Assembly (NCBI GenBank): GCA_024709505.1 | Contig: JANJWP010000028.1 | Span: forward strand, 1 to 38,344 | DNA from: Candidatus Altimarinota bacterium | GTDB taxonomy: Bacteria > Patescibacteriota > Gracilibacteria > BD1-5 > UBA2023 | Direction of reading: 5' to 3' | Length of the DNA: 38,344 nt | In this document: one piece after another, positions 26,327 to 34,929 of the stretch | How positions within the stretch are numbered: position 1 is the first letter of the stretch | How the letters are laid out: each line of letters begins with the position of its first letter | Made by a program: the position numbers and the translations under genes | The notes under the pieces: generated by a model | Database searches by the model: none | Seen by the model: only the letters and a program-made list of their open reading frames with translations | Told to the model about the DNA's origin: nothing

Positions 26327-27928
26327 CTATTCTTCGCGTTTGGTTTCCGAAAGCTTCTCGCGGATAAGGGGAAAGAAGCGGTAGTATTCGGTCGCCTGAA
26401 GGCCGGAATACCGTCCGGTAGCGACGATCGCGGCAAGAATGACGAAGGCCGTTTCGGGATAGCTGAGGAGCGCGTTTCGAACGGAAGCCGATTCCATGAC
26501 GACGTAGGCGGCAAGGCAGACGGTGGAAAACTGTGCGATGGCGGATGCGGACTCCTTGAGTTTTGATCAGGATATGCCTTCCCCGTACAGCTTGTCGGCT
26601 ACGAGGAGTACGAAGATGAACGGAAGGATGGCCACTTGCGTGGAATAGAGGTCGAGTCCGTCGAAGAGTCCCGTCCATTTGAGCGAAGAAAGGAGCGCGA
26701 TGGATATGAGCGCGTAAAGTCCGAGCGAAAAGGTTTTTCTTGCCCCGTAAGAAATTCGGAATTTGGAGAAAGCCTTTTCGGTCATCCAAATCGCGACGAC
26801 GGCCGAAAACAGGAGGACCGCCACGTTGGCGGCGCTGGAAGCCGAAACCGAAACGACCAAAAAGAGCGGACCGAAGGTTCCGAAGGTGTGGAATCCGACG
26901 ATTTGACGGAAAATGACCAGCACGAGCGCTCCCGCCGTGAGCGAAAGGACGAAGCCGACGAACGATATCGGAAATCCGGCATAGGCTATGCGGTTGAAGG
27001 CCTTTCGGAATCCGGAACCTCCGGAGGTTTTTCAAAAGTCGATTTCCGAAGCGATTCCGGTCGCGACGTATCCGGAAGCGCCCATGAGCATGAGGAGGTT
27101 GGAAACGTTTTTTCCGGTGATGGCCCACATGCGTTCCATTCCGAGTTGTTCGGCGTATCCGGCGACCGTGAGCGAAAGCAGGTAACCGTTTCCTTCGTCG
27201 GCCACGTAGATTTCTTTTCCCGAGAACGGGGGTTTTTTAGGGGCGTCGGCGGATTGCGTTTCCAAGGCCTGCATACGCGCGGCGGCCTCGAAAAATTCGG
27301 CGGGCCGCTTTGCCGCGACGATGACGTAGTCGGATTCTTCGACGTCCTTGCGGTATTTTTCGAGAAGCGAGGAATAATCCCGGGAACCCGGAATCGAGGA
27401 TGATCCGGCGGCTCCGGTTTCCCGCAGGAGGATTGACCGCGACTTCAATGCGTCCCGGACGGCCGGAGTAATCGAAGATCCGGCATCGCCGACGTAGACG
27501 AGGGTTTTTTCGTAAATGCGGACGTTTTTCCGAGCTTCCGAAGAACATTCGTTCGCACGGGTCAGAATGGCGCGGATTTCCACCTTTCCGGCTTCCGAGA
27601 AAAACCGCAGGTATTTTTCTTTCGCGACGCTTTCCACGAGCTTCCCGTCCTTTCGAAGCTCATAAACGATCCGGTCGCCTTCGTTCATCGTTCCGTTTTC
27701 CGGAAGCGCGAGGTATTCCTGGGAGGTTCCAACCTTTACTTCCTCGGGACCCGAAATCGCAATGGTTTCCCATTGGCAACCGGCGGCCGGCGTTTTTGGG
27801 TTTTCCGTTGGCGCCGCCGAAGCGGAAAAGCTTCCCGCGGAAAGAACGGCGAGGAGGAAGCCTCCAAACATCGGGGCGATCGAAGATTTGAACGAAGTGG
27901 GGAACATGTTTTTCGGGGGTTTACGCAT
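26327..27928 (-). CDS. Signal-peptide protein with C-terminal 7TM_transglut-like membrane domain
   Basis: UGA codons at 27032-27034 (Gly299) and 26567-26569 (Gly454) restore 533 residues ending in TAG. A signal peptide (1-39, SASAAP end) leads to an outer part: an Ig/PKD-like beta domain (about 55-125), then an alpha/beta segment (about 140-225, KTLVYVGDAGSSITPAVRDAL). The C-terminal half (about 245-530) has around seven helices and the phrases RQIVGFHTFGTFGPLFL and GRYSGLQATEYYRF, which match the 7TM domain known from 'inactive transglutaminase fused to 7TM' proteins. Those are genomic neighbours of RimK-like ATP-grasp ligases. Here the transglutaminase part is absent and replaced. Its start overlaps the end of the ATP-grasp gene by 8 nt, so it is in the same operon. 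It may display or receive the ligation product at the membrane. Confidence 0.78.
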
Positions 27929-28973
27929 AAGAATCCGATACGGCGTCGAGCCAGGTTTTAAGAAACTGCCGTTCTCCGGTTTCGTTAAGGTAACCGGTAA
28001 GGACGTTGTTTTCGATGAAATAGAATTTCCCCTGTTTCGTCACGATGACGTCGAGCCCTCCATGATTATCGATGATGACCGAACAAAAAGTCTGGACGGC
28101 TACCGTGAGTCCTTTGGGGATTTCGCGGGGCTCAAGCGGCGCTATTTCCCCGCCTTCTCCCGGAACGTGCACGACGTGCTTCGGAAGCCGTCTGCGTTTG
28201 TACATCCCCACGATTTTCACTCCTTCTTCGGATTTCGTCCAAAGCACGCGGATTTCGCAATCGAGGGCGTCGAGAAGCTCAAAGGCAGCAAATGATTTCT
28301 TTCCTCCTTCGTAGAGCTGCGAGACGGCTACCAAGAGGTTGTTGGAATCTTTCGGGTCTCAGAGGTCAAAGGCCAAAATCCCCTTCCCCCCGGAGTACCC
28401 GTCGATTTTCAAGACCACGTTCCGCCCCACTCCGTATTCGCTTTTGAGAAAATCCCGAAAAAGCCGGGGATCGGAATCCTTCGTTATCAGTGGGAGCGCC
28501 ATTTTCGGAACGTGGACGTCGCACCCGCTGACTTTTCCCCAATACGAAGAAAACCGCTTGGTTCCAAAAAAATCGAGCCGGAAATCGTAGGCGAAAAGCA
28601 CTTTGATGCCAAAGGCGGCGGCGAGGTATGATTTAAAGAAGGCCAAGTATTCCTTTTCGACGCCTTCGATTCGCGGAAAAAGGATTTCGGAGCCGTCCTC
28701 GAACCGTTCGAAGTTTTCGGATTCGCCGTTCCAGTAGTAGGCTCCGGCTTTGGTTACGTAGACGTTCGGCGAAACAATGGCTCCAAATTCGTCCGGGCTT
28801 CCGAGCCGTTTGGCGAAAACGTAGAAAGTATCAACCGAACTCGCTTGGAATTTTTTGTACGCGACAAGGTTCGATTCGACGTCCCGGAGCATGGGATAAT
28901 CCCAGTTTCGGTAATACTTCCGTATTTCCGAAAGGCGGTGTTCCGAGAATGGGGAGATGAGGTAGCGTTTCAT
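27921..28973 (-). CDS. ATP-grasp family protein (third of operon)
   Basis: UGA 28359-28361 (Gly205) is read as Gly and sits just after the glycine-rich ATP loop. The protein is 350 residues. The nucleotide-binding segment VVLKIDGYSGGKGILAFDL matches the ATP-grasp 'KP..GxGGKGI' loop, and the metal site shows as GGLDVIVTKQGKFYFIENN (Asp and Glu-x-Asn). The N-terminal ~180 residues differ from RimK and include YLISPFSEHRLSEIRKYY. It should form an amide or similar bond through an acyl phosphate; the substrates are unknown. It starts 4 nt after the ATP-grasp/DUF1704 gene and overlaps the 7TM gene by 8 nt, which argues for coupled translation. Confidence 0.8.
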
Positions 28974-28977
28974 GGGA

Positions 28978-31293
28978 TTATTCGAAAAGCGGAAGGTCTT
29001 CTATCTTGATTTTCGCGACGAGGAGCCGGTCGGGGTTTCCTCAGGAGGAAACCCATTTCTCGATTTTTTCCACGCCGTCGAGATAGACTTTGTCTTTAAG
29101 GAACGCGGCTCCCGAATGGGATGAAGACGTATCGCAAACTCCGCGTTTCGCTCGGACGCAAGCTTTGAAGACCCGTTCGAGATCGCGCTCGGGATCGGCG
29201 TTGCGAACGAATTCGGCCAGCGACGAAAACGACGATCCGCAGGCTTTTCGACAGACCTCGTACTTGAAGACGTGCGCATCGCGGTATTCGGGATTTTCAT
29301 AGGTTTGAAGGCTTCGCCATACGGCGAGACCTTCTTCGTCGCGAAGGTAGAATCCCGTTCCGGATTGAAACAGCTTGAGTCCGGTTTTTTCGCCGTTCAT
29401 TCGGCGGACCAAGTGGGTACCGATTTCGTGTTCGAGCGTTCCGGTGATTTCGACGTCGCGGATTTTGGCGCCTTCGGCGACGTTGATCCGAGGAGCGTCA
29501 CCCACCGCGACCGCGATGCGCGATCCTTCCCTCGACACGAATCGTACCGGAACTTCCGGATGTCCGACCTCGCGCAATTTTTCCGAAATGGCGCGCGAGA
29601 GTTCTTCTTTGGAGAGGAGATTGCCTTGAACGACGTTTTTCGGCCGGGTTTTTGAAAAATCGTGGACGACTTTGGAAAAGCCTCCGTAAAGGGCGACGTT
29701 GGCTTCCAAAAGTCCCGCGAAATCCTGTTTCGCGACGGCTTCGATGAGTTCGATGCGGAGTTTGAGTTCACGAATTTTTTCAACGTAGGCGTTCGCGAGC
29801 CGCGGCGATGATTTCAGCCGTTTCCGAACGGCTTCCTCGGCCGTTTCGAGCGATTTCCAATAGTTCGAAAGGGTTTCCGGAGCGGGGAGATCGTATCGGA
29901 AAAACGGATCGTAACGTCCGCCGGAGGCGATGAACGCGTCGAGTTCCTCGTAGTAATTTTTTGGACGGAGGATTCCGGTTACGTTGAGTTTCCGCGAGAT
30001 TTCCGAAACGTCGCGGTCAATTTGGAGCGTTTCGGGAATTTCGTCTTCCGCAATCCCAAAAGATTTGGCGACGGCCCCTTCTCCGGCTTTGTGGACGGGG
30101 CGGATGAAAAAGTCTTTCACGGCCGATTTCCCCAAAACGATTTCCCCCGATTCCGGAGTTTCGGAGACGTGAAATTCCCCGAGGGAAATTTTGGCGCCGC
30201 CTTCGAATTCGATCTTTCCGCCGTCCGCCGCTTCCCGGAGGGATGGATGAACCGAAGTTCCTTCGCGGGAGAGGTCAACGCGCACCATGACCGAAACCTT
30301 CGCGCCCCCTTTCGGGGCGAGCTTCGCGTTTTGCGAAAGGCAGAGTATCCGGTCTTCGGAGACTGTCTGCCGTTTTTCGGGATCAAAGAGGGCCTTCGCG
30401 ATTTCGACGCCTTTTTCCGGGTCGGCAACCTTCATCTTTCCGAGTTTTTCCAAACGATCTTTGAGAGGGAGTCCGCAGACGTTTTGGATTTCGAGTCCCG
30501 CTCGGGCATTGATTTCGAGGATTTTCGGTCCGTCCGGAGTGATGACCCAGTCGAGGGCAAGATACCCGAGGTTGGTAAAAAGCTGGATTTCCGAGGAATA
30601 GAGGAGGATCGAATCCCAGTGGGGAATTTTTCGCTTTTCGAACGGAGCGTATCCTTTGGGGAATCTGGCCGCATAAAAGCGCCGGTCAACGAAACAGCTC
30701 GTGATCTCCCCGCTCGCGATGCCCAATCCGAAGCCTACGCCACCTTGCGCGAGATTGGCCTTCCCGTCGGAACGGTCGGTCGGCATGCGGACCATTGCCG
30801 CCACTGGAACGAGATTGAAAACGATGACCCGAATATCGGCGAGCCCGTGTTCGCAGAATGCCGAAAACGAATCCGAAGGAACGAGCGTTTCTTCTATGAG
30901 GACGCTGTCGGTTCAGGAGGTGACCGAATATTCGCCTTGGAGAATGTCGGAAAGCCGGCGGGCGAATTCGCCGCGTTCGTATTCGCTTCCCGAAGTCTTG
31001 AAGAGGGTCGTTTGGTCACGCCGGATTTTCCGGACGATCATGATTCCCTGTCCTTTGCTTCATCGGTTGGGCTTCACGACGAATTTTTCGGGAAGCGTGT
31101 CGAAATCGAAGTGCCGGAGTTCGTCTTCGGTTTTGATTCGTCCGTAGGTTTCGGCGACGGGGATTCCGCGTTCGGACAAAAACCGTTTGGTACGGTTCTT
31201 GTCGTCGGCCAAACGGATGCCCTTTCGGGGGTTGAATTTTTTGACGTAGTCGAGATTGCGGGCGTTAATCCCGAGAAGTCCGAAATCGAACAT
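28978..31293 (-). CDS. RimK-like ATP-grasp ligase fused to a DUF1704 metallopeptidase
   Basis: Three UGA codons (31060, 30913, 29041; Gly78, 127, 751) are read as Gly, giving 771 residues. Residues about 1-290 are an alpha-L-glutamate-ligase-like ATP-grasp: GINARNLDYV, RLADDKNRTKRFL, the ATP loop FVVKPNR-G-SKGQGIMIV, a NLAQGGVGFGLG loop and the metal site DWVITPDGPKILEINARAG. Residues about 350-750 are a DUF1704 (PF08014) domain with HEIGTH (622-627) and a downstream EEGLA (about 653), the HExxTH...QEGLA layout of this gluzincin family, whose animal members (MATCAP) remove a C-terminal Tyr from tubulin. One chain thus has a ligase and a peptidase. It starts 2 nt after the upstream ATP-grasp gene and ends 4 nt before the next. 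A tagging/untagging or processing enzyme is inferred. Confidence 0.88.
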
Positions 31294-31295
31294 GC

Positions 31296-32240
31296 CTATT
31301 TTACGCGGTTTTTGAAGAATTCTACGACGTTTTCCCAGTGTCGGGCCTCGGCTTCCGGGTGGGGGTATTGGAGGCCGGGGGAATCGTTGGCCTCGATGAG
31401 GTACCAACGGCCTTCGGGCGCCGAGTAGGAGAAATCGATGGAAAAGATTTCCCGACCTTCCGGGTCGATCGAAGCCGCGATTTCGCGGGCGATTTCGCGA
31501 AGGTCTTCCGGAACGTCTTCGATTTTCGGGCAGAATTCGCCCCCTCAGGCCGAAACGTTGCATCGGAATTCGTCGGCGTTTTTTGGATAACGGATGCTCG
31601 CGATGGAGATTTTTCCGCCCACGTGATCGAGGCGGAAATCGTGCACGCCTTCGGCGAGCCCCGGGATTCCTTTGGAAAAATCCTTGAATTCCTGAAGGAT
31701 GTGGACCATTCCCAAAGGAAGGAGCGCTTCTTTGGTTTTGGGGTCTTCGAGCTCGGTTTTGGAAACCTTTCGGATTCCTTTTCCTCCGTAACCTTCGGTG
31801 GGTTTGAGGATGAGGGTTTCGCCTTTGAGGCGGTCGCGGACGTTTTGGTACTCAAAATACTCCGAAACGAGCGCGGTGGCGGGCTGGTGCTTTTTAAACG
31901 CGAGGTAGGTCGCGTGCTTGTTGTTGGCGAGTTCGGCGACCCGGTTGGACGGAACGACCGGAACGTAGGGTTCGATTTCGGTGGCGACGAAGTAGCGCGA
32001 GTGCGACATTTTGCGCCAAAGGATTTTGGGCGAGAGGGGTTCGTTCACGGTCACGATGTCCCCTTCGGACATTTTTTGAAACCGCGAGAAACGCCGGGTT
32101 TCGACGTTGAAATCGTCGAGGGCAACGTGGACGAGTTCGATTCCGCGCGGAAGAAAGAAGTCGTTTCTCCGCGAATAGAGGCGTTTTTGATAATCGGTAA
32201 GTTCGCCGTGAAGCGAAGGGATGAGGATTCCCACTTGCAT
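31296..32240 (-). CDS. ATP-grasp ligase, first gene of the operon
   Basis: UGA 31545-31547 (Gly232) begins a Gly-rich loop, NVSA-G-GGEF, where RimK-type ligases carry an active-site glycine loop. The protein is 314 residues. Other ATP-grasp signs are TLILKPTEGYGGKGI (ATP loop), MVHILQEF (adenine-contact region), DFRLDHVGGKISIAS and the metal site SIDFSYSAPEGRWYLIEAN with the final Glu and Asn. RimK- or YheC-like ligases of this type add Glu or other amino acids to a protein or peptide end. The start chosen is ATG 32240 (an in-frame TTG lies two codons upstream). It follows a consensus -10 box by 26 nt and ends 2 nt before the ATP-grasp/DUF1704 gene. Confidence 0.85.
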
Positions 32241-32362: not shown

Positions 32363-33505
32363 TTATTGACAGGCTTTTACCGCTTCGGCGACCGTGAGCG
32401 CGACCTTTTTGTCGAGCGGGTCGGGGATGATGCGCTCGACGGTGGGCTCGCCGACGTATTCGGCGAGGGCTTTCGCGACGGCGAGCTTCATTTCTTCGGT
32501 GATCTTTTTCTTTCAAGATTCGAGAACGCCCTTGAAGATGCCCGGAAAGGCGAGGACGTTGTTGATTTGGTTGGGAAAATCGCTCCGTCCCGTCGCGACG
32601 ATGGCGGCGCCACCGGCGCGGGCTTCGTCGGGCATGATTTCGGGAGTGGGGTTGGCCATGGCGAAGACGATGGCGTCCTTGGCCATGGTCGCAATGTCGG
32701 CGCGGTTCAGGAGGTTGGGTTGGGAGAGTCCGACGAACACGTCGGCGCCCATGAGCATTTCCTTTAGGGTTCCGTCGCGGTTTTCCAAATTGGTAATTTC
32801 GAGGAGCTTGGTTTTGGCCGGATCGAGGTCGGCGCGGTTTTTCGAAAGGGCGCCCTTTGAATCGCAGGCGACGATATGGCGGACGCCCGCGCGGTGGAAA
32901 AGTCGGATGGTCGCGTTTCCGGCGGCCCCCGGACCATTGACGACGACGCGGATTTCTTCGAGCTTCTTGCCCGTGACCTTCATGGCGTTGTAGAGTCCGG
33001 CGAGAGCGACGATGGCGGTGCCGTGCTGGTCGTCGTGCATTACCGGAATGTCGAGCTCGGCTTTGAGGCGCTCTTCGATTTCAAAACAGCGAGGGGCCGA
33101 AATGTCTTCGAGGTTGATGCCTCAGAAGGTGGGGGCGACCGCTTTAACGGTTGCGATGATTTCTTCGGTATCCTGAGTGGACAATACGAGCGGGAATGCG
33201 TCCACTCCGGCAAATTCCTTGAAGAGCACGCATTTGCCTTCCATAACCGGGAGTCCGGCCATGGGGCCGATGTTGCCAAGTCCAAGAACGGCCGATCCAT
33301 CGGAAATTACGGCGACGGTGCGGCCCTTGAGGGTGAGCTTGTCCGCGAGCGAAGGATCTTTGGCAATGGCGCGGCAAGGCTCCGCGACGCCCGGAGAATA
33401 AGCGAGCGAAAGGTCGTCGCGGGTGTTCACGGCCACGCGGGTGACGGTTTCGAGTTTGCCACGGATGCGTTCGTGGAGCTTGAGGGATTCGGAGAAGTAG
33501 TCCAT
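32363..33505 (-). CDS. NAD(P)-dependent malic enzyme
   Basis: Malic enzyme oxidatively decarboxylates malate to pyruvate. UGA codons at 33122-33124 (Gly128) and 32513-32515 (Gly331) restore 380 residues, the size of short bacterial malic enzymes without a phosphotransacetylase tail. Motifs: SLAYSPGVAEPC, VISDGSAVLGLGNIGPMAG and MEGKCVLFKEFAGVDAFP; the joint APTF-G-GINLEDISAPRCFE, where UGA replaces an invariant Gly; HDDQHGTAIVALAG; and the NAD-binding VVVNGPGAAGNA. The catalytic Lys and metal-binding Glu/Asp (EDI.. FEIEERL, DDQHG) are present. Upstream on the same strand is glutamate dehydrogenase; the pair would move carbon between amino acids, malate and pyruvate. It has no Shine-Dalgarno. 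Confidence 0.96.
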
Positions 33506-33608: not shown

Positions 33609-34859
33609 TTACCACCCCCTCGCGTCCATGGCGGCGATGATCCGGCCCATGGCGAGAACGAACGCCCCCATGCGGAGTTCGCGGCCGTGTTCGCGGGCTT
33701 TGTCCACCACGTCGCGGGTGGCCGAGCGCATGCGCGATTCGAGTTTGACGGCGACTTCTTCGGCGGTCCAATGGAAGTTCGAATCGTTTTGCGCCTGTTC
33801 GAAGTAGCTTACGGTCACGCCTCCGGCATTGGCGAGAATGTCGGGAATGACCGGGATGCCCCGCTTGAAGAGGATGGCATCGGCTTCGGGGGTGGTGGGG
33901 CCGTTCGCGAGTTCGAGCACGAGCTTCGCGCGGACCTTGGGGGCATTGGTTGCGGTGAGGCGGTTTTCGAGCGCGGCGGGAACGAGGATATCGACGTCGA
34001 GTTCGAGGAGTTCGTCCGCGCCAATCTTTTTGGCTCCGGGATATTCCGAGACGGATTTGCGTTCCTTTTTGAGGCGGGCGAGGATTTGGTCGTCGAACCC
34101 TTCCGCGAGGTGGGCGGCTCCTCCGGAATCGGAGACCGCCACGACTTTGGCACCTGCCGCATGGAGGATTCCGATCATGGTGAGTCCGGCATTTCCCGCG
34201 CCTTCGACGGCGACGGTTTTTCCTTGGAGCGATTGTCCTTCTTCGGCGAGGAATTCGGAGAGTACGAAGAAGGCGCCCTGCGCGGTTGCCCGGTCGCGAC
34301 CTTTGGAACCTCCGGCGGAAAGGGGTTTTCCCGTAAATGCGCCCGGCGTCCATTTACCCGCTAGGCGCGAATATTCGTCAACCATCCACGCCATGATTTT
34401 GGGGTTGGTGTTCACGTCCGGCGCCGGAACGTCGGTTCCGGGACCGAGATAGCGGAAAAACCGTGCGACGTAAGCCCGCGAGAGCCGTTCGAGTTCGGTT
34501 TGCGAGAGCTTCGAAGGATCGACGACGACTCCGCCCTTGCCTCCGCCTAACGGAAGGTCGAGAACGGCGGTTTTCATGCTCATCCAGACCGAAAGGGCCA
34601 TGACTTCGTCTTCGGTTACGCCCGGATGGAATCGAATGCCGCCTTTGTAAGGACCCCTCGCCGAGGAATGTTGCGATCGGAAAGAAGGAAACGAGCGGAC
34701 GTCCCCGTCGTCCATTTCGACGACGAGATTCGATTTGAGCACGCGCTCGGGCTCGAGGAGTTTTTTGACCGTGTTTTTGGAAAATCCGGCGATATCGGCC
34801 GCGTCGAGCATTTGTTTGCGGGCGTTTTCGAAAGGGGACTCAAGGGAGGGGGGATTCAT
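33609..34859 (-). CDS. gdhA: Glu/Leu/Phe/Val dehydrogenase (glutamate dehydrogenase)
   Basis: This enzyme interconverts glutamate and 2-oxoglutarate plus ammonia with NAD(P). The 416-residue protein is colinear with hexameric glutamate dehydrogenases: ARGPYKGGIRFHPGV and MSMKTAVLDLPLGGGKGGV (substrate and catalytic lysines), PAPDVNTNPKIMAWM, TGKPLSAGGSKGR, the Rossmann motif AVEGAGNAG, and the C-terminal ELANGPTTPEADAIL and NAGGVTVSYFEQAQN. ATG 34859 is the natural start. It contains no UGA codon although it is Gly-rich, as for ychF. It is upstream of the malic enzyme gene by 103 nt and diverges from the glycosyltransferase genes. Confidence 0.96.
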   Translation of the reverse strand: MNPPSLESPFENARKQMLDAADIAGFSKNTVKKLLEPERVLKSNLVVEMDDGDVRSFPSFRSQHSSARGPYKGGIRFHPGVTEDEVMALSVWMSMKTAVLDLPLGGGKGGVVVDPSKLSQTELERLSRAYVARFFRYLGPGTDVPAPDVNTNPKIMAWMVDEYSRLAGKWTPGAFTGKPLSAGGSKGRDRATAQGAFFVLSEFLAEEGQSLQGKTVAVEGAGNAGLTMIGILHAAGAKVVAVSDSGGAAHLAEGFDDQILARLKKERKSVSEYPGAKKIGADELLELDVDILVPAALENRLTATNAPKVRAKLVLELANGPTTPEADAILFKRGIPVIPDILANAGGVTVSYFEQAQNDSNFHWTAEEVAVKLESRMRSATRDVVDKAREHGRELRMGAFVLAMGRIIAAMDARGW

Positions 34860-34929
34860 GCGGGTGGATTTTTGGAATTCTGGCGTTTTTCCGGGCTTGG
34901 GATTTCGAGCCGAAAAAAGCCATCCGAGA

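Follow-up and report, generated by a model that had tools for sequence, protein, structure and literature searches.

What do four tightly packed genes achieve together when three of them encode ATP-grasp proteins, one of these three carries a peptidase, and the fourth encodes a 7TM membrane protein? We addressed this question in the window, a stretch of 38,344 nucleotides that forms one whole contig of a Candidatus Altimarinota genome (1.17 Mb, 98% complete). The operon lies on the minus strand and consists of gene A (32240-31296, 314 aa), gene B (31293-28978, 771 aa), gene C (28973-27921, 350 aa) and gene D (27928-26327). All four are open under table 25, in which TGA encodes glycine; a table 11 reading was rejected because it breaks genes A to D. 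TGA codons are sparse in the operon (1-3 per gene), while B orthologues elsewhere contain up to 48, and one TGA codon specifies G78, a conserved glycine in the ATP-binding loop of B. With TGA read as glycine, the packing reported in the preliminary description is exactly right, as genes A and B are separated by 2 nt, genes B and C by 4 nt, and genes C and D overlap by 8 nt. A chance origin of this packing was rejected because the B-D pair recurs among relatives.

A TATAAT promoter had also been proposed for the operon. The hexamer is present 5′ of gene A (32272-32267, minus strand), but its status as a promoter is unproven: no −35 element was found near it, and promoter matches in the operon region equal the shuffled-sequence expectation, so that TATAAT does not rise above chance. 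A terminator-like hairpin (32330-32313, minus strand) sets the operon apart from the malic enzyme gene upstream. The genes directly upstream on the same strand encode glutamate dehydrogenase (33609-34871, minus) and malic enzyme (32363-33505, minus); the former is suggestive, but could be there by chance.

By its sequence, gene B joins an ATP-grasp ligase of the RloC type to a MATCAP peptidase that is intact, which makes it a candidate writer and eraser in one chain. The ATP-grasp half (residues 1-300; 30394-31293, minus strand) matches ATPgrasp_ST (PF14397) above its cut-off (1.3e-50, 172.6 bits) and matches the alpha-L-glutamate-ligase-like family TIGR02291 with 204 bits, which is below the equivalog cut-off of 314; K74, D153, R155, N180, D248, E260 and N262 are conserved. 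The second half (about residues 426-771; 28978-30018, minus strand) is a zinc-peptidase domain of the MATCAP family (PF08014 / TIGR02421; PF08014 at 2e-19, 70.3 bits, cut-off 27), the family formerly named DUF1704 and also called QEGLA. It aligns with human MATCAP (7z5g) through HEIGTH, EEGLA and CVRAKRG..DTS. The HEIGTH zinc motif (residues 622-627; 29413-29430, minus strand) is identical to the human one and, by analogy with human MATCAP, E654 in the EEGLA motif (residues 653-657; 29323-29337, minus strand) would be the third zinc ligand. Across 42 fused relatives, the zinc-site and main ATP-grasp residues of B are at least 95% conserved. Human homologues are the only members for which a C-terminal carboxypeptidase or deglutamylase activity has been shown: they cleave Tyr and Glu from the C-terminus of tubulin and trim chains of poly-Glu (PMC10499314). 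The genome has a second MATCAP-family gene without an ATP-grasp (L056:6931-8610, G000:C27; 560 aa), and similar paralogues adjoin B in loci L052, L053 and L055.

The 7TM partner has been rebuilt, as the preliminary description proposed. Gene D matches 7TM_transglut (PF14402; 5.9e-14, 52.6 bits, cut-off 25) and is laid out as a signal segment, a PKD-like domain (residues 54-147), an alpha/beta domain (155-296), a 7TM region (about 321-508) and a short tail. It appears to be an RloB-type 7TM protein in which the PKD-like domain replaces the inactive transglutaminase. The inactive transglutaminase (PF14400) was not found in D by Pfam or by fold; a search of the whole genome for PF14400 carries no information, since its control, like the search itself, gave no match. 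Relatives of D give matches to PKD and to 7TM_transglut, while in Legionella RloB the inactive transglutaminase is present. The C-terminal tail of D is probably cytoplasmic, because a Halobacterium single chain has an ATP-grasp after its 7TM part. This chain is an unannotated 584-aa frame on plasmid CP007061.1 of Halobacterium sp. DL1 (L118:5164-6918), where 7TM_transglut is fused directly to ATPgrasp_ST, and it represents an archaeal Rosetta-stone fusion of the 7TM protein and the ligase.

We found that B and D travel together. Among 59 relatives, 34 contain B; a 7TM search combined with an HMM scan finds the pair complete in 33 and missing altogether from 24. The two exceptions, one in each direction, are G052 and G017, whose B lies on a contig that is too short for D to be seen. 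The concordance in 57 of 59 relatives, even where the genes are far apart, supports the earlier view of ligase, peptidase and 7TM protein as one functional module. In one family of the order (L119-L133 against L023-L035), the genes for the 7TM protein and for the fused ligase-peptidase are unlinked, yet both have been kept. The commonest fused form is B-D alone (37 D-GM runs), and the minimal core system is the two proteins B and D. Beyond the order, a survey of 287 genomes of the phylum found the 7TM family in 87, MATCAP in 64 and both in 52. Among named hosts, fused forms occur in, for example, Gracilibacteria, Peregrinibacteria, Peribacteria, Absconditabacterales, Magasanikbacteria, Uhrbacteria and Dojkabacteria, and unfused forms in Moranbacteria, gamma- and deltaproteobacteria and a cyanobacterium.

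Genes A and C are dispensable accessory ligases that come and go and are replaced among relatives. Gene A matches GSH-S_ATP/RimK-like ATP-grasps and keeps its catalytic residues (K..GGKGI, NVSAGGG, SIDF and EAND), as expected of an intact RimK/glutathione-synthetase-like enzyme; its orthologues adjoin the core pair in L043, L045 and L048. Gene C has no Pfam match. Its predicted structure matches ATP-grasps, with RimK (5zct) as the best hit (E 6.6e-9), and with a mean pLDDT of 68 the model suggests the fold class alone: a divergent ATP-grasp nearest to RimK. K189, E232, D308, E321 and N323 of C are invariant in six sequences, while the asparagine that follows H269 in most relatives is replaced in the window's copy. 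The ligase residues are all kept in A and B, and most are kept in C. C is rare: of the order's 77 genomes only 6 have it, besides two marginal matches, and it sometimes lies at another locus. The "RimK-like" label given earlier to the ligases is a loose one: no gene reaches the RimK-family cut-off (TIGR00768, 143.4 bits; scores of 39.9 and 47.8). Across Patescibacteria, the B-D core recurs, and A and C are variable.

The preliminary description knew of no described arrangement of this kind; that the arrangement is unique is not supported. In 134 sampled 7TM loci, drawn from two collections with a few genomes counted twice, an ATP-grasp lies in the same run as the 7TM gene in 127, and at least three ATP-grasps are present in 22. 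Three ATP-grasps, MATCAP and the 7TM gene occur together in other loci as well (L043, L045, L048, L078 and L103). Consequently, the operon belongs to a widespread family of modules, of which the window holds a locally elaborated form with accessory ligases added. The clusters of relatives also contain additional ATP-grasps that match the Pfam family of tubulin-tyrosine ligases (L083:3246-4217, 4e-10; L078:6425-7915, 3e-6). A literature search for the Patescibacterial module found no description of it; an earlier prediction is possible in Iyer et al. 2009, who reportedly were the first to predict such ATP-grasp/7TM associations.

The C-terminus of D offers a candidate site of action. It ends in KREE (26330-26341, minus strand), and an alignment of 15 D orthologues, with 20-29% identity to the window's D, has an invariant Glu at the very C-terminus. 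In the tree set, D proteins of fused systems have Glu as the last residue in 58 of 58 cases and as the penultimate residue in 56 of 58. The distance between the last conserved membrane-proximal motif and the terminal Glu pair varies from 8 to 19 residues, indicating that the pair is anchored to the terminus and not to the membrane. As background, two Glu among the last three residues were found in 3 of 154 neighboring proteins.

The tail is restricted to loci with MATCAP. In a hold-out of 40 further loci, fetched before their tails were inspected and counted as tailed when two or more of the final three residues were Glu, the tail is present in 18 of 18 loci with a fused MATCAP and in 0 of 22 without the fusion. 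Among named genomes, whose organisms partly overlap the other set, the counts are 33 of 34 fused systems and 0 of 41 others. Three unfused systems do have the tail, and each has a separate MATCAP in its locus; of the rows whose state is known, none combines an -EE tail with a locus that lacks MATCAP. The rule does not run in both directions: L100 ends in QNE and L204 in KQN while both are fused with an apparently intact MATCAP, and several genomes with a separate MATCAP have no -EE tail. The 7TM protein of L091 (5241-6977), which has no MATCAP, contains an EEE run that is internal to its tail and not terminal. A Shine-Dalgarno origin of the -EE codons was rejected; an ATP-grasp gene is missing downstream of 30 tails, one does follow 73 of the 76 non-EE D genes, and the tail codons are GAA and GAG in a ratio of 188 to 49.

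Much of the association between tail and MATCAP reflects shared ancestry, because few independent changes occur on the 7TM tree, with about four for the fusion state and about five for the tail. Fusion state was assigned per genome, with G052, G403 and G407 entered as unknown. Two supported pairs of independent changes were obtained, a number at which a sign test cannot reach significance; in random pairings on the tree, the tail nearly always changes in the expected direction or does not differ. The association is therefore evidence of conservation and not a proven correlation. Regardless of the tree test, the terminal Glu pair has been kept over long divergence in the MATCAP-fused lineage.

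We propose that B extends and trims the cytoplasmic Glu tail of D and that tail length sets the state of D, a reading to which we assign a probability of roughly 0.48. In this mechanism, B would combine a peptide-bond-forming ATP-grasp of the RloC/RimK kind with a MATCAP-type zinc carboxypeptidase, and its principal substrate would be the cytoplasmic C-terminus of D, whose PKD-like domain would face outward. The ligase half would lengthen the encoded -EE(E) end with glutamate or a related amino acid, the peptidase half would take the added residues off again, and tail length would control the membrane protein, as with RimK/RimB on S6 and TTLL/MATCAP on tubulin. A and C would be optional ligases, perhaps for other residues or with other acceptors. 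Glutamate is the candidate donor, judged by the ligase family and the tail. S6 was rejected as an acceptor of B here, because this genome's S6 ends in VRTDE and has no Glu tail. Profile searches found no match to RimK (PF08443) in the genome, or to the RimB/RloA-type retropepsin protease (PF05618) in the genome and the operon. With S6 lacking a Glu end and the genome lacking both enzymes, D would be the obvious acceptor for B. The general form of the proposal, that a bacterial one-chain writer-eraser reversibly lengthens the encoded C-terminal Glu tail of a membrane protein, is put forward more tentatively.

Several other mechanisms would employ the same genes. The ATP-grasp could make a poly-alpha-glutamate or mixed peptide that the 7TM protein exports or anchors, with MATCAP limiting its length and -EE serving as a primer or docking site. 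In Pseudomonas aeruginosa, loss of RloB or RloC rescues the loss of the secreted, poly-Glu-cleaving RloA proteases (PMC12239564), which is consistent with a periplasmic product; D also resembles PgsC weakly (2.3e-4), and the several ATP-grasps of many relatives would be expected for a mixed peptide. However, the peptidase follows the ligase within a single fused chain and is therefore presumably cytoplasmic, where it could not reach an exported polymer, the genome has no retropepsin, and a polymer model does not depend on a tail fixed at the final residue. We consider polymer synthesis unlikely, if the best of the alternatives. Less probable still, the -EE tail could bind the MATCAP half as a pseudo-substrate that holds B at the membrane or keeps B off, the true product being a small peptide or another protein. 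MATCAP enzymes do act on acidic tails, and the EE end occurs only where MATCAP is encoded, but docking would not call for a motif placed at the very C-terminus, with a varying distance to the membrane.

The preliminary description had envisaged three ligases building a peptide tag in sequence, the peptidase trimming it and the 7TM protein exposing it. The tight packing of the four genes and the ligase residues retained in A, B and C agree with this scheme, but A and C are replaced among relatives, B-D alone is the prevailing fused form, and C is confined to few genomes and not always to this locus; a sequential assembly is thus very improbable. As for exposure of a tag through the membrane protein, the evidence favors instead the cytoplasmic tail of the 7TM protein itself as the probable substrate. 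That the ligases are peptidoglycan, cofactor or ordinary RimK/S6 modification enzymes is the least credible possibility, as the likeness is one of ATP-grasp superfamily resemblance only, no match passes the curated threshold for an enzyme of a named pathway, S6 lacks a Glu tail in this genome and the operon has no cell-wall genes.

The module is real, widespread and built from known families, and as a gene module it is apparently undescribed; what is new is a candidate writer-eraser fusion whose membrane partner has a conserved Glu tail. Very few bacterial proteins are known to be glutamylated, namely S6 and Legionella SdeA (PMC12239564). For a module spread over Patescibacteria, the conserved -EE tail of the 7TM partner provides a concrete and testable candidate acceptor. 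The question of what RloB and RloC do becomes directly testable in a small, two-protein form, and the MATCAP family gains a candidate bacterial role. If glutamate-tail extension and trimming by B is correct, D would stand as the first substrate known in bacteria for the MATCAP family, and the system would be a prokaryotic counterpart of the tubulin-tail code.

Several known systems share parts of this design. In the QEGLA (TIGR02421) sets of Rhizobiaceae, a MATCAP-family gene adjoins a glutathione-synthetase-like ATP-grasp (L179), but an N-formylglutamate amidohydrolase is present there and no 7TM protein was seen. RimK offers a precedent for the proposed chemistry, as this ligase extends the S6 C-terminus with glutamates that a peptidase trims (PMC10092738; PMC11957791). 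The E. coli S6 substrate is itself encoded with an -EE end; here, the ligase subfamily and the peptidase class are different, the two are fused and the proposed acceptor is a membrane protein. MATCAP and TMCP1-2, together with TTL/TTLL, likewise pair an ATP-grasp writer with a metallopeptidase eraser on Glu-rich C-termini, and the peptidase is homologous, with the same HExxxH and EEG motifs; the present system is bacterial, has no tubulin and carries writer and eraser on a single polypeptide. Closest of all is RloABC of P. aeruginosa, its Proteobacterial relative, which combines a 7TM_transglut protein (RloB), an alpha-L-glutamate-ligase-like ATP-grasp (RloC) and a peptidase (PMC12239564); the same order, 7TM gene and then ligase, is seen in the Legionella and Aeromonas loci. 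Unlike the window's operon with its extra ATP-grasps, its fused MATCAP metallopeptidase, its PKD-like domain and its -EE tail, Rlo systems have a secreted retropepsin (RloA, PF05618), and an N-terminal inactive transglutaminase in RloB; the RloB homologues inspected here end in KARS and GKDK. Because two defining features, the retropepsin and the inactive transglutaminase domain, were searched for and not found, we class the operon not with the Rlo systems but as a variant within the broader ATP-grasp/7TM group.
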